From a virus, in the IMG/VR virus record IMGVR_UViG_3300020084_000041, positions 1 through 36,861 of that record: DNA of 36,861 bases, one strand, 5' to 3'. The position numbers and the translations under genes are program-made. This document shows, in pieces, positions 33,014-36,861 of the stretch. The notes beneath the pieces are model-generated. The model searched no databases and was not told where the DNA came from. It saw only the letters and a list, made by a program, of their open reading frames with translations. Within the stretch, counting starts at the first letter, position 1, and every line of letters starts with the position of its first letter.

Positions 33014-35287
33014 ATGAAGGATCTTACGGAAGCCTATAAAGAAATTTATCAGCTTGATGAAGTTAAATTTGCAAATGTTGGTGCTCTAGCATCAAATGTG
33101 ATGAGAATGCCAGGTGGTGCTACTCCTCCTAAGAAGGATGAACCAGTTGCTAAAGATACGCCTGCGCCCACTCCAGCAGCCGCTACAACGCCTGCTCCTT
33201 CAGCAATGGATCAGTGGGCAAAGGCAAATCCAAAGCTTGCTGCAGCGGCTGCTGAGAGGGCTCGTACTCGTGGTACAAGTGAGACTGATAATCCTCTCAT
33301 GAAGGATATGAGAGCTAATCTTCCAGCACCTGCAAAGGCACAGGATCCAAACTTCCAGAGCATTATGAAGTCTGGTAAGTACGGTGATCAGGGGTATCAG
33401 AGTTTAACGCAGAATCCTAATGTAAGAGCAACAGCGCCTGTCACATCACAGAACGGAAAAGCAGCACAACCCAAAGTAGCCGCATCAGCACTTCAGCAAG
33501 TCATGGCAGCAAGCCAAGCCGCAGCAGCCTCAATTAATAATGATCCAAGAGCACAAGCCTTTGATACCTCCAAGTATGGTTTCTCAGGTAAAACAACTCC
33601 AATCACACCTAGAAAGCCTCTACTTCGCACACCACTCAGAAACTCCTATGATTACGGACAGATGGACTCACAACAACTCACATCGCTTCTGAATGCTTAT
33701 AGTGAAATGTATCAAGATAATATTGAACCAGAAGGTGAACAACTTGATGAATTTTTAGGAAGAGCAATTGATGCAGCTGCTGCAAAAGTTGGGCCTGTTA
33801 TTGATAGAGGAGTCAATGCTGTATTTGGGAAACCAAAACCAAGACCAATATCATCATCTCCAACCCCAGCAACAAGACCTGTTGCACCTACACCTGCTGC
33901 CACTGCAAAACCACAACCAACTCAACAACAAGGAAATTATGGAAATGTTGGATCACTTGGAAATTTTGGTGGAAATTTAAAATATGTTGTAGATAGAGCA
34001 AAAGAAAGAAATCAAATGCTGAATCAATCTTACCAACCAGAAGGTGAACAACTTGATGAGTTTTTGTTTGGACCATCAAAAGTAACTCCAAAGGGCGGAC
34101 AATTGTCAGGTTCAAAAGCGCCTGTAGAAGTTGATAAAAAATATACTGCACAAAAACAAGGACAACTTGTAAATGTGCAGTATGATAAGGGAGGAAATAG
34201 AAAAGTAACTCCTATGTCTCCTGCTGAGAGAGGAGCTGCTGCTCTAAAACTTAGACTAAGTGGTGGTGGAGCATCTAGTCCATCAATGAATCAATATCAA
34301 ACTCAATCATTTGAACCAGAAGGTGAACAGATTGATGAGAAGTGCTGGGATGGTTATACGAAAAAAGGAATGAAGACAATGTTTGGAAAAAGATATCCAA
34401 ACTGTGTGAAGAAAAAAGCAGTAACTTCTGAGGAGGTTGAGGCTTATGATATTATTCTTGATCATATTCTCTCAGAAGGACTCGCAACAAGTGTAGAGAA
34501 TGCTGAGAAAATTATGAGCGTGATGAGTGATACCTGGATGCAGGGTATTCTTGAGGACTGGAGGGTAGGTTTGAAAATTCCCCTTGGAAGAAGCAGCAGT
34601 GGTCTTCAGGGGCCTATAGGTGTTTATGGTGGATACTCAACCCCTATTGGATCTAGTGGTACTCAAGCAGCAGTAAATGCTAATCTGGAGTATGGTGATA
34701 TTCTTAAGGCAAGAACTCCAGAAACTGCTGTAGATCAAGGACTTACAAATTTGCAGACTGGAGCACCAATTCCTAAATCAGATGTAAGAAAAGGTTTTAC
34801 AGGAGGTCTGGATGCTAAGATTTCGGGATCTCTTGGATCTGGTCAGCAGCCTGCACCAAAACCAGTAACTAAACCAGCACCAAAACCAAAACCAGAAGAC
34901 CCCAAACCAGCAACAGCAACAACTCCAGCAGCAGCACCAGCACCAGCACCAGTACCTCCGCCACAAGATGATGGCAGAAGAGTTGGATTACCTGATGATG
35001 GGCGAACTACTACATTCACACCTCAAGGTAATGATCAACTACTACATTCACACCTCAAGGTAATGATCAGGAACGTCAAGTTCGTGGTATTACAAATGCT
35101 GCTAATGGAACTGGTGATCGACAAACTGGAATGGGAGTTATCGGTCCTCAGAGTTTTGTTAGAAATAATCCCGTTATGCCTGGATACTAAACGAAATCAC
35201 GCAGGTTTGACACTCTTGCTTGGGAGATACTTCTTCTTAAACTCGTCAAAGCCTTCTGGGGGTGCTGAGGGCTTTGGTTGTGGTTGA
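33014..35287 (+). CDS. Repeat-containing prohead/core polyprotein-like gene, 3' end frameshifted
   Basis: As read, the product is 757 residues. It begins MKDLTEAYKEIYQLDEV, with L-T-E and L-D-E that fit the T4 prohead protease consensus (L/I)xE. The octapeptide PEGEQ(L/I)DE recurs, ending at residues 246, 349 and 442. Then come a Cys/Lys module (KCWDGYTKKGMKTMFGKRY, about 443-461) and a helical module with YDIILDHILSEGLATSV (L-S-E at 486-488) that I recall from other marine T4-like phage proteins. The linkers are rich in Ala, Pro, Gln and Lys, and PAPKP repeats lie near 615-660. After residue about 675 the sequence changes to an unlikely hydrophobic tail, because a 32-bp tandem duplication (35006-35069) shifts the frame. 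Without one copy the frame ends at 35190 with a 714-residue product whose tail reads QERQVRGITNAANGTGDR and ends NNPVMPGY. It is probably a head-core or internal protein precursor. Confidence 0.7.
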   Translation: MKDLTEAYKEIYQLDEVKFANVGALASNVMRMPGGATPPKKDEPVAKDTPAPTPAAATTPAPSAMDQWAKANPKLAAAAAERARTRGTSETDNPLMKDMRANLPAPAKAQDPNFQSIMKSGKYGDQGYQSLTQNPNVRATAPVTSQNGKAAQPKVAASALQQVMAASQAAAASINNDPRAQAFDTSKYGFSGKTTPITPRKPLLRTPLRNSYDYGQMDSQQLTSLLNAYSEMYQDNIEPEGEQLDEFLGRAIDAAAAKVGPVIDRGVNAVFGKPKPRPISSSPTPATRPVAPTPAATAKPQPTQQQGNYGNVGSLGNFGGNLKYVVDRAKERNQMLNQSYQPEGEQLDEFLFGPSKVTPKGGQLSGSKAPVEVDKKYTAQKQGQLVNVQYDKGGNRKVTPMSPAERGAAALKLRLSGGGASSPSMNQYQTQSFEPEGEQIDEKCWDGYTKKGMKTMFGKRYPNCVKKKAVTSEEVEAYDIILDHILSEGLATSVENAEKIMSVMSDTWMQGILEDWRVGLKIPLGRSSSGLQGPIGVYGGYSTPIGSSGTQAAVNANLEYGDILKARTPETAVDQGLTNLQTGAPIPKSDVRKGFTGGLDAKISGSLGSGQQPAPKPVTKPAPKPKPEDPKPATATTPAAAPAPAPVPPPQDDGRRVGLPDDGRTTTFTPQGNDQLLHSHLKVMIRNVKFVVLQMLLMELVIDKLEWELSVLRVLLEIIPLCLDTKRNHAGLTLLLGRYFFLNSSKPSGGAEGFGCG
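33725..34339 (+). repeat. Three copies of PEGEQ(L/I)DE coding repeat
   Basis: The copies lie at 33725-33751, 34037-34060 and 34313-34339. Each is preceded by a Tyr/Gln-rich segment (AYSEMYQDNI, NQSYQ, YQTQSF) and followed by a new domain. The DNA of the copies is nearly identical around the core, so the repeat is visible at base level. The first copy resembles the protein's own N-terminus (AYKEIYQ...LDE). Confidence 0.8.
35006..35069 (+). repeat. Exact 32-bp tandem duplication causing a frameshift
   Basis: Two perfect adjacent copies (35006-35037 and 35038-35069) start ACTACTACAT and end GTAATGATCA. The unit is not a multiple of three, so the second copy shifts the reading frame. Removing one restores a frame that ends at TAA 35188-35190, 6 bp before the convergent gene's stop. 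Confidence 0.95.
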
Positions 35288-35346
35288 GGCTTATAAGGCT
35301 GATAAGGAGATCCGCCTGACTCCATAAAGGATTGAAAGGTTTTCAT
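35197..35346 (-). CDS. Small Pro-rich protein (49 aa) with capsid-targeting-like N-terminus
   Basis: The ATG overlaps the stop of the upstream ART-like gene (TAATG), and the TGA lies 6 bp from the corrected end of the convergent gene. The product begins MKTFQSFMESGGSPYQPYKP, continues with Pro/Gln/Lys and an EGFDEFKKKYL helix, and ends SVKPA. The first residues parallel the ART-like protein (MKTYSQFLDEA) and T4 internal protein starts (MKTYQEFIAE). The P3 residue before E would be F instead of L/I, so cleavage is uncertain. Function unknown; a packaged peptide is plausible. Confidence 0.65.
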   Translation of the reverse strand: MKTFQSFMESGGSPYQPYKPQPQPKPSAPPEGFDEFKKKYLPSKSVKPA

Positions 35347-36050
35347 TAGTCTGCTAAACGTGTATTGGCAATTCCATAACCAGGAGTTCCACCAACTTGA
35401 TAACGTCCTGTAGTTCCTGATGGTGATCCAACATTACCTAAAGAACTACTCATTCCTCTGGTAGATCTAATTTCTCTTCTAATCACAGATCTATTTTGAG
35501 GTTTTTTCATTGCAGTGGAAACTCTTTGTCGCAATTCTTGTTTTTGAGTACCTTGGAAGGTTATGGCACTTTGAGGTTTATCAGTAATATCATAACGATT
35601 TGCTCCTTTTGGAGACATTTGCACTATATTAAATGTATTTCCTCCTTTTTGTGCCGTCCATTCTCCACGTTGATCTCTTTGTGCTTTAACTTTATTGTAT
35701 GTACTTGTCGGTAATCTAAATGTACGCACCGCAGGACTTTCGCCTCTTTGAGATGCTCTTTGATTTGCATACATCTGAGCAGCAGGTCTTTGTGGCGTTG
35801 TATAAACTCCAGATCCTGTCATTTGGCGAGTGACATTTATATTAGTTCTCCATCCAGATCTAGAAATTTGTTGTGATGCTGGTTGAGTTGTGCCATGGTA
35901 GAGGCGAGTAAATGATGCTGATCTTGGGGCAGTACCAGTTCTTCTTGAAACTTGCTGTTTCAATGCTTGATTACGAAAGGCAGATCGTGCTGCTGCTTTA
36001 ATTACAGATGTTGCTAATGCTTCATCAAGAAACTGTGAGTAGGTTTTCAT
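35346..36050 (-). CDS. Putative ADP-ribosyltransferase-like protein with capsid-targeting N-terminus
   Basis: The product is 234 residues. The N-terminus MKTYSQFLDE|A matches the capsid-targeting peptide of T4 internal proteins (IPI/IPIII start MKTYQEFIAE), with L-D-E as a (L/I)xE prohead protease site. Residues about 48-115 look like a DT/PARP-type ART fold: RLYHGT (H52), then an ISRSGW segment, then GSGVYTTP (Y83) with AAQMYANQ behind it, then AVRTFRLP. These correspond to motifs 1 and 2 of the H-Y-E class; the third catalytic residue is not clear (Q166 in AITFQG is a candidate). The C-terminal 70 residues are basic and Gly/Ser-rich. Such enzymes move ADP-ribose from NAD+ to a protein, nucleic acid or small molecule; the target here is unknown. 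It starts 1 bp after the upstream stop and overlaps the 49-codon gene. It could instead be an inactive ART-fold protein. Confidence 0.6.
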   Translation of the reverse strand: MKTYSQFLDEALATSVIKAAARSAFRNQALKQQVSRRTGTAPRSASFTRLYHGTTQPASQQISRSGWRTNINVTRQMTGSGVYTTPQRPAAQMYANQRASQRGESPAVRTFRLPTSTYNKVKAQRDQRGEWTAQKGGNTFNIVQMSPKGANRYDITDKPQSAITFQGTQKQELRQRVSTAMKKPQNRSVIRREIRSTRGMSSSLGNVGSPSGTTGRYQVGGTPGYGIANTRLAD

Positions 36051-36051
36051 T

Positions 36052-36861
36052 TTACTTCTTAGGTTTGTTTAAGGCAGAATATGCAGCAATACCTGCACCT
36101 ACAAGACCTGCAGCAAGACCAGCACGACCGCCTCTGATATTAATTTTGGGTAGCTTAGGTACTGTGAGAGCTGGGGCTTTTGGTAGTGATGGTGACTGTA
36201 CTCTTGGAGTTGTTTGTAGTGCCTGAGTGGCTTGTCTTAAAGAAGGTCTAGAAGGTTTTGCTGGAGCAATCGTTCTTCTGTCCCCAAATCCTCTCTCCTT
36301 TGCTGCCCAGTATCCTGCAGGTTTGTGAGGTGGTCTGGTAACTTTGTCTAATTCTCGTCTATTGTATACCCACTCTGGATCTAAGTTACCTGAGAGTGGA
36401 GTAATACGCTGAGCACCCCTTGCGGCTTGTCTTGATGATGGTGGACGATTCACAGCAGCATACTGTCTTCCCTGCATTCCAGTTTTTCCAAAACCTGCAA
36501 CCTTTGAGTATAACTTAGAGCGAGTATTTCTCTCACTCGTATCATTACTAATTGGAAAATTAGTTAAAACAACATTACTTGGAATACGTGGAGCAACCTG
36601 ATTCTTCCACATATCTGCAACACTTCTTACAATTGATCGAGCTTCTCCAGGATTATGCTTTTTCTTGCCTGACAAATTATACCACTCAACATCATAAACA
36701 GGTTTTCTACCTGGGGCAATTTGATCCTTCTGACGAATTTTCATTTCAAGATCATTCTTCGTATCACGCACTCTCATGCCATAATCTGTATCTGTTTCTA
36801 TATCATAACGACCACTCTTATCAGGTCTTGAATCAAAATATGGATTATCAGCACCACGACT
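36052..36861 (-). CDS. Basic hypothetical protein, 5' end beyond window
   Basis: The first ATG in the window (36777) is probably not the start: the same frame is open without a stop for 28 more codons to the right edge, encoding a natural-looking SRGADNPYFDSRPDKSGRYD followed by IETDTDYG. At least 269 residues are therefore visible. The visible part includes PVYDVEWYNLSGKKKHNPGEA, then SIVRSVADMWKNQVAP and NTRSKLYSKVAGFGKTGMQG, a Pro/Arg/Gln-rich linker, and a C-terminal Gly/Ala-rich segment RAGLAAGLVGAGIAAYSALN with a KPKK end, like a glycine zipper or short membrane segment. The R-S-K-L-Y...GFG piece recalls the end of GNAT acetyltransferases, but this is weak. It is the first visible gene of the presumed packaged-protein cluster. 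Confidence 0.65.
   Translation of the reverse strand, partial: SRGADNPYFDSRPDKSGRYDIETDTDYGMRVRDTKNDLEMKIRQKDQIAPGRKPVYDVEWYNLSGKKKHNPGEARSIVRSVADMWKNQVAPRIPSNVVLTNFPISNDTSERNTRSKLYSKVAGFGKTGMQGRQYAAVNRPPSSRQAARGAQRITPLSGNLDPEWVYNRRELDKVTRPPHKPAGYWAAKERGFGDRRTIAPAKPSRPSLRQATQALQTTPRVQSPSLPKAPALTVPKLPKINIRGGRAGLAAGLVGAGIAAYSALNKPKK

Follow-up and report, generated by a model that had tools for sequence, protein, structure and literature searches.

The locus examined here raises the question of whether a small gene close to the end of a viral contig encodes an ADP-ribosyltransferase (ART) that is carried in the phage head and injected with the genome. The contig (IMG/VR record IMGVR_UViG_3300020084_000041) was analysed over all of its 36,861 nucleotides, and is called the window below; loci on other viral contigs carry L numbers. 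An earlier note, made from the letters of the window, had proposed that the protein couples a targeting peptide like those of the T4 internal proteins (IPs) to an ART core of the H-Y type.

Layout of the gene and its neighbours

The ORF was confirmed, together with all of the motifs quoted for it in the earlier note: MKTYSQFLDE at the start, RLYHGT at residues 49-54, GSGVYTTP at 79-86 and AAQMYA at 90-95. The features assigned to it are as follows.

35346..36050 (-): complete ORF, 234 aa, ATG start; putative capsid-targeting sequence (CTS), linker, H-Y ART core and basic C-terminal tail
36021..36050 (-): residues 1-10, MKTYSQFLDE, putative CTS similar to T4 IPII/IPIII (MKTYQEFIAE)
36018..36023 (-): predicted gp21-type cleavage site Glu10/Ala11, from the L-x-E rule
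35913..36020 (-): residues 11-46, basic linker, poorly conserved in the family alignment
35580..35912 (-): residues 47-157, predicted ART core (Pfam DUF3990/PARP/ART-PolyVal, AF2, PDB fold matches, hhalign)
35895..35897 (-): His52 of the Y-H-G-T motif, strand 1, predicted NAD+-binding His; codon checked
35802..35804 (-): Tyr83 of the G-x-G-V-Y motif, strand 2, invariant in the family
35769..35771 (-): Tyr94, predicted second (nicotinamide-stacking) Tyr, invariant in 7 family members
35619..35630 (-): segment Asn141-Gln144 within FNIVQM, where strand order in the model and comparison with the phage PARP L094 place the third catalytic residue
35349..35555 (-): residues 166-234, basic C-terminal tail; L010 retains the tail with a different centre
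36052..36861 (-): upstream gene, truncated at its 5' side where the contig stops; 45% identity over 118 aa to L009:5662-6333

The protein is strongly basic, residues 11-234 having a net charge of +28 and a pI of 11.8. A single base separates its start from the stop codon of ORF 36052-36861 upstream (TAAAATG), and because of this spacing the two genes are probably co-translated. The upstream protein has a pI of 10.6, and has family members in L009 that lie in tandem and begin MKTF(Q/S)(Q/E)FL. Scanning the window for Rfam families and tRNAs gave no matches.

Several features of the surroundings can be recorded here. In L009 (4931-8804, + strand), four tandem paralogues of the ORF 36052-36861 family are followed by a short CTS-like gene and a payload-swapped relative. 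In the window, ORF 33014-35287 (+) encodes a long low-complexity protein with repeated 'xxPEGEQ(L/I)DE' blocks, each with an L/I-x-E site of the kind cut by gp21, and in phage S-PRM1 a protein with the same block adjoins the CTS gene. A perfect 32-bp tandem duplication at 35005-35069 shifts the frame near the end of this ORF relative to the near-identical L001 contig (714 aa), and is either a real variant or an assembly error.

The proposed targeting sequence and its genomic setting

In the T4 record (NC_000866), IPII and IPIII begin MKTYQEFIAEA and IPI begins MKTFKEF. The first 10 residues of IPIII suffice for packaging, with positions 4 and 7 acting in targeting and positions 8 and 10 in cleavage (PMC9026906). 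The N-terminus of ORF 35346-36050, MKTYSQFLDEA, shares 7 of its 11 residues with IPIII, and its functional positions (Y4, F7, L8 and E10) are those of a T4-type 10-residue CTS. Positions 4, 7, 8 and 10 are aromatic, Phe, hydrophobic and Glu, respectively, in all seven ART-bearing family members.

The pattern K[TS][FY]..F[LIVMF].E was then counted in 719 distinct cyanophage ORFs of at least 70 aa. It directly follows the start Met in 55 of them, although these are not 55 independent events because many are relatives of the CTS-RlpA family described below. After an internal Met it was found in 5 of 2,464 cases, all 5 being true starts of longer-called ORFs, and after any non-Met residue in none of 132,250. 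The pattern in its DNA form was also run, as a positive control, across the whole of T4, where it returned IPII, IPIII and the small hypothetical gene 61.1; the reversed pattern gave zero matches in T4. By these pattern counts, the CTS of ORF 35346-36050 is more than a chance resemblance, and the proposal of a T4-IP-like targeting peptide is upheld, both by the match at the functional positions and by the confinement of the pattern to gene starts. Gene 61.1 itself (NC_000866 18966-19130), which starts MKTFKEFIKE, is the sole non-IP match in T4 and possibly encodes an unrecognised packaged protein.

Both the CTS and the ART core are kept in seven family members, the one in the window included, even though the L134 member has diverged to 32-35% identity outside the invariant motifs. 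The gene lies between uvsY and uvsW in L002, L003, L086 and L136, with gp23 also upstream in L086 and L136. In L005 and L134 it is on contigs carrying psbA, and L135 is the same gene as in L134 on another contig. The presence of psbA on two contigs places the family in cyanophages. No members were found in bacterial or archaeal genomes, or in cultured phages. By gp6 (72% identity), the window is closest among cultured phages to Synechococcus phage DSL-LC03, which came from Dishui Lake in China; this gives no support to the label of marine phage used in the earlier note. The counterpart neighbourhood in DSL-LC03, beside a glycosyltransferase gene, holds a different CTS gene, starting MKTYTEFISE. 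CTS-bearing proteins of DSL-LC03 are encoded at 83765-84538 and 118339-118659. Since the window is a fragment that includes neither gp21 nor gp22, the delivery machinery is seen only in a relative, a gp21 homologue being annotated in DSL-LC03.

In L005 and L135, a late-promoter match (TATAAATA/AATAAATA; expected 0.06 times per 160 bases) precedes the start codon by 32-40 bases, which speaks for late expression and so for the packaged reading. None was found in the five loci where the ART gene closely follows another gene, which include the window. This lack of a recognisable late promoter of its own would suit an ordinary, unpackaged ART, expressed early or late in host takeover or in superinfection exclusion like T4 ModA/ModB, whose likeness to a CTS arose by chance or descent. 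We regard this as distinctly improbable, in that the CTS is present in 7/7 members, is common to unrelated payloads and is restricted to gene starts, the ART core is found behind two different CTS scaffolds, and head genes are among the neighbours in relatives. Delivery of the ORF 35346-36050 protein through the head, as judged from its tag and setting, is by comparison highly probable.

A mixed profile search, run without a positive control, found no ART-core relative in DSL-LC03 or S-PRM1. The cultured Synechococcus phage S-PRM1 does encode a CTS-bearing protein that starts MKTYNQFVLEA (AXN58543.1; MH629685.1 8736-9362; L228:5737-6363). A 208-aa S-PRM1 protein, probably the same one as the length is equal, is viral match 4 of the ART model in Foldseek. 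The motifs of AXN58543.1 look R-S-like (VYRG, FSTT); as a relative it was set aside, with an hhalign probability of 0.2% and nothing in Pfam, and is kept as a lead only.

The predicted ADP-ribosyltransferase core

Across the seven family members, the Pfam PARP model matches all seven (E 1e-3 to 0.12), DUF3990 matches six (E 4e-4 to 1e-3; L135 has no DUF3990 match) and ART-PolyVal matches some. For PARP (PF00644) the window protein scores 14.1 bits and the best of the family 18.9, below the curated cut-off of 26.7; for DUF3990 (PF13151) it scores 20.2 bits and the other members 19.3-20.5, below the cut-off of 32.2. Eight shuffles of the window protein gave no ART-clan Pfam model, though one chance match to a non-ART model reached E 0.003. 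The Alt model is absent from the Pfam matches of the window protein, which has H-Y motifs instead of the R-S-E active site of T4 Alt. Searches of PDB sequences with the window protein gave no match. As each single Pfam E-value is below the curated cut-off, the case for an ART is built on the agreement between models, the profile link to phage PARPs and the fold.

The profile link comes from scanning the DNA of viral contigs for the pattern YHGT...GxG[IV]Y, which identified about 80 other phage ORFs. Among these, the best matches to the family profile are a portal-PARP fusion in L062 (37 bits) and a MuF-PARP fusion in L065 (30 bits). The former (L062:98-2251, + strand) joins a portal protein to a PARP catalytic domain, which at 38.3 bits is above the Pfam cut-off for PF00644. 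Alignment of the family with five phage PARP-type proteins by hhalign gave a probability of 97% and E 1e-10 over 52 columns.

An AF2 model of the full-length protein from four sequences was discarded (pLDDT 43) and a model of the ART domain alone, from 17 alignment rows, was used instead (pLDDT 81, pTM 0.69). The split β-sheet ART core is present in this model, with fold comparison Z-scores below 8 and with ART rows in part of the alignment. Among the best 50 PDB entries listed after VIA re-alignment, all 50 belong to the ART superfamily, with Z from 7.8 to 6.0, and they include diphtheria toxin, Tpt1/KptA, exotoxin A, tankyrase, PARP1, cholera toxin and the Rhs toxin TreX. The Foldseek rows for the domain model are also ARTs, with a best E of 0.037. 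It should be noted that 10 of the 17 alignment rows come from phage proteins already known as ART-like and span the N-terminal half of the domain, so that the prediction is tilted towards an ART answer and is to this extent circular, and that Z stays below 8. Structure prediction and Foldseek comparison were among the checks proposed in the earlier note, and the core on which its claim depended is present in the model.

Could the H-Y motif be a coincidence, and the protein a small, basic component of the head structure? The Pfam scores below the cut-offs and the empty PDB sequence search are what such a protein would give. Set against them, three ART models agree over the family and none appears in shuffles, the hhalign probability is 97, and the fold comparison lists only ARTs. 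A non-ART protein is thus close to refuted, and a real ART fold is very probable.

The earlier claim of an H-Y-type core holds for the fold and for the His52/Tyr83/Tyr94 signature, and needs amending at the third residue of H-Y-E, where Asn or Gln probably takes the place of Glu. The strand-1 His (H52, in YHGT) and the strand-2 Tyr (Y83, in GSGVY) are those of the H-Y-[EDQ] clade, and both are invariant in 7/7 family members and in 17/17 alignment rows; Tyr94 is invariant in 7/7 members. Tyr83 and Tyr94 are 11 residues apart, the same spacing as between the two tyrosines of PARP1 (Y896 and Y907). An H-Y-Y-E tetrad has been described (PMC7955679). The third catalytic position, which in the H-Y-[EDQ] clade is Glu, Asp or Gln, is likely to be held in the window protein by Asn141 or Gln144, neither of them acidic; L135 has Lys and Leu, respectively, at these two sites. 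This placement follows from alignment of the segment N-I-V-Q-M-S-P of the window protein with E-I-V-V-Y-D-P of the phage PARP L094, and also from strand order in the model. The region (FNIVQM, 140-145) is kept in 6/7 family members and replaced in L135.

The lack of Glu in this position, and the further change in L135, are compatible with a packaged protein of ART fold that is catalytically dead, a basic DNA-bound protein that would bind NAD+, ADP-ribose or a host protein, for example as a shield against an ADP-ribose-based host defence. Its very basic character would also fit, since it is shared with the T4 internal proteins, not all of which are enzymes. Nevertheless, 7/7 members, in spite of the divergence of L134, retain His52, Tyr83 and Tyr94 together with the G-T and G-x-G around them, and active human mono-PARPs also have no Glu in the third position (PMC7955679). 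A dead enzyme is rather unlikely, and catalytic activity of the protein is somewhat more probable than not. Given Asn or Gln rather than Glu, transfer of a single ADP-ribose is likelier than chain growth, and mono-ADP-ribosylation is plausible because the active human mono-PARPs share this absence.

Taking tag and core together, it is probable that a T4-like cyanophage (Kyanoviridae) packages the product of ORF 35346-36050 in its head and injects it as an effector. By homology to the T4 IPs, residues 1-10 would bind the scaffold core of the prohead and so bring the protein into the forming head, where the prohead protease gp21 would cleave after Glu10 and leave a strongly basic protein among the packaged DNA. 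The cleaved protein would then be ejected together with the genome. In the host, the predicted PARP-like core would bind NAD+ through His52, Tyr83 and Tyr94, and may mono-ADP-ribosylate at least one host molecule as infection begins, the part played by T4 Alt with an R-S-E ART.

Exchange of cargo and relation to known systems

The gap between uvsY and uvsW was compared in 37 loci where both genes are visible. Of these, 19 have no gene in the gap, 11 have a CTS-like gene (counting L164 and L218, whose tags deviate at position 10 or 8) and 7 a GIY-YIG nuclease. The CTS-like genes carry the ART core, another domain (L010) or one of several unrelated proteins (L162, L198, L199, L164, L218). L010 and L002 have 92% DNA identity through codon 12 and 97% from the 3' part on, with no detectable similarity between, and the equivalent of the C-terminal tail in L002 and L003 is common to L010, which has another payload. 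In L135, the ART core is flanked by the two ends of another protein, a CTS-bearing N-terminus and a glycine-rich C-terminus, and in L005 that protein is without ART. The cargo proteins have a pI of about 10-12, while six of the seven other window proteins tested have a pI of 4.4-5.7 and the seventh (33014-35287) has 9.1. With its constant CTS and 3' part and its swapped payload, the arrangement looks like an address tag for interchangeable and highly basic cargo, the cargo here being a mono-ART-like enzyme. In the related phages, recombination in the shared flanks, the CTS codons and the 3' end would swap the payload while the tag stays. One tag with many interchangeable payloads would be a larger pattern than the earlier note had in view.

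The closest parallel is with T4 IPI, IPII and IPIII, which have an N-terminal CTS (M-K-T-[YF]-x-x-F-[ILM]-x-E in IPII/IPIII), basic cargo, and a constant tag with a variable payload (PMC3012670, PMC9026906); no enzyme domain is known here for the T4 IPs, whereas the window cargo has a predicted ART core, is from a cyanophage and occupies other gene positions. T4 Alt is a head-packaged ART with a short cleaved propeptide that is injected with the DNA (PMC9026906, PMC9503650), as we infer for the window protein; it differs in being of the R-S-E class, while the window protein is of the H-Y class with a domain of about 110-150 residues and an IP-type CTS. The head-packaged or polyvalent phage ARTs (portal-, MuF-, N4-type and ART-PolyVal) share the H-Y clade and include the nearest profile relatives, L062 and L065. 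These ARTs are parts of structural or very large proteins, unlike the window ART, which is small and single-domain with a detachable CTS. PARP and DUF3990 (PF00644, PF13151) have the same YHGT, GxG[IV]Y and second Tyr 11 residues on; the window protein is below the cut-offs of both, and has neither the third-position Glu nor a PARP regulatory domain.

Packaging of ARTs in phage heads has been stated as a general theme, with the H-Y clade among the commonest viral ARTs (PMC9503650), and CTS-addressed cargo with a variable payload is known in T-even phages (PMC3012670). The earlier suggestion that an ART class other than that of Alt in the head might be new is therefore too broad, head-packaged myophage ARTs of the H-Y clade having already been described (PMC9503650); what is new is the CTS-addressed, single-domain form and the cargo slot. 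A literature search found no paper that joins CTS cargo with head ARTs, or that deals with CTS cargo in cyanophages, which is weak evidence as most subscription journals and bioRxiv were outside its coverage.

Little is known of how the T4-like cyanophages, major killers of Synechococcus and Prochlorococcus, gain control of the host in the first minutes, and many proteins of their virions lack an assignment (PMC3037559). A readable address tag would make the injected proteins a question of sequence, to be approached by a CTS scan, a cargo list and testing. The present case offers one enzyme class (a PARP-like ART), a testable cleavage site, and natural control pairs in which the tag is constant and the payload varies, and it would carry the T4 principle of tag plus cargo, known from coliphages, over to phages that are only distantly related and matter ecologically. 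We put forward tentatively, as quite possible, that uncultured T4-like cyanophages have an open-ended injection system driven by recombination. A tag of 10-12 codons would be present at a few slots (uvsY-uvsW, gp23-gp19, near psbA, and beside the glycosyltransferase gene) and unrelated payloads would be swapped behind it, including the PARP-like ART, an RlpA-like double-psi barrel, proteins with weak HNH/endonuclease VII-like matches and unknown domains; the PARP-like one would reprogram the cyanobacterium by ADP-ribosylation in the first minutes.

Two further loci are of interest. L136:8275-8670 (+), between gp23 and gp19, encodes a CTS with an RlpA-like double-psi barrel (PF03330, E 3e-10), and has at least 103 relatives in viral contigs, 80 of these loci being L141-L220; the CTS part lies outside the RlpA matches listed for the phage collection. 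L119:2980-8977 (-) contains about nine small genes, most of which start like MNFKQFIxE, MKFKQFI or MKLKQFLSE and have very different payloads, one being an apparently truncated H-Y ART and one a papain-like neighbour. From its gene starts, this run looks like a large cluster of CTS cargo in another phage lineage.
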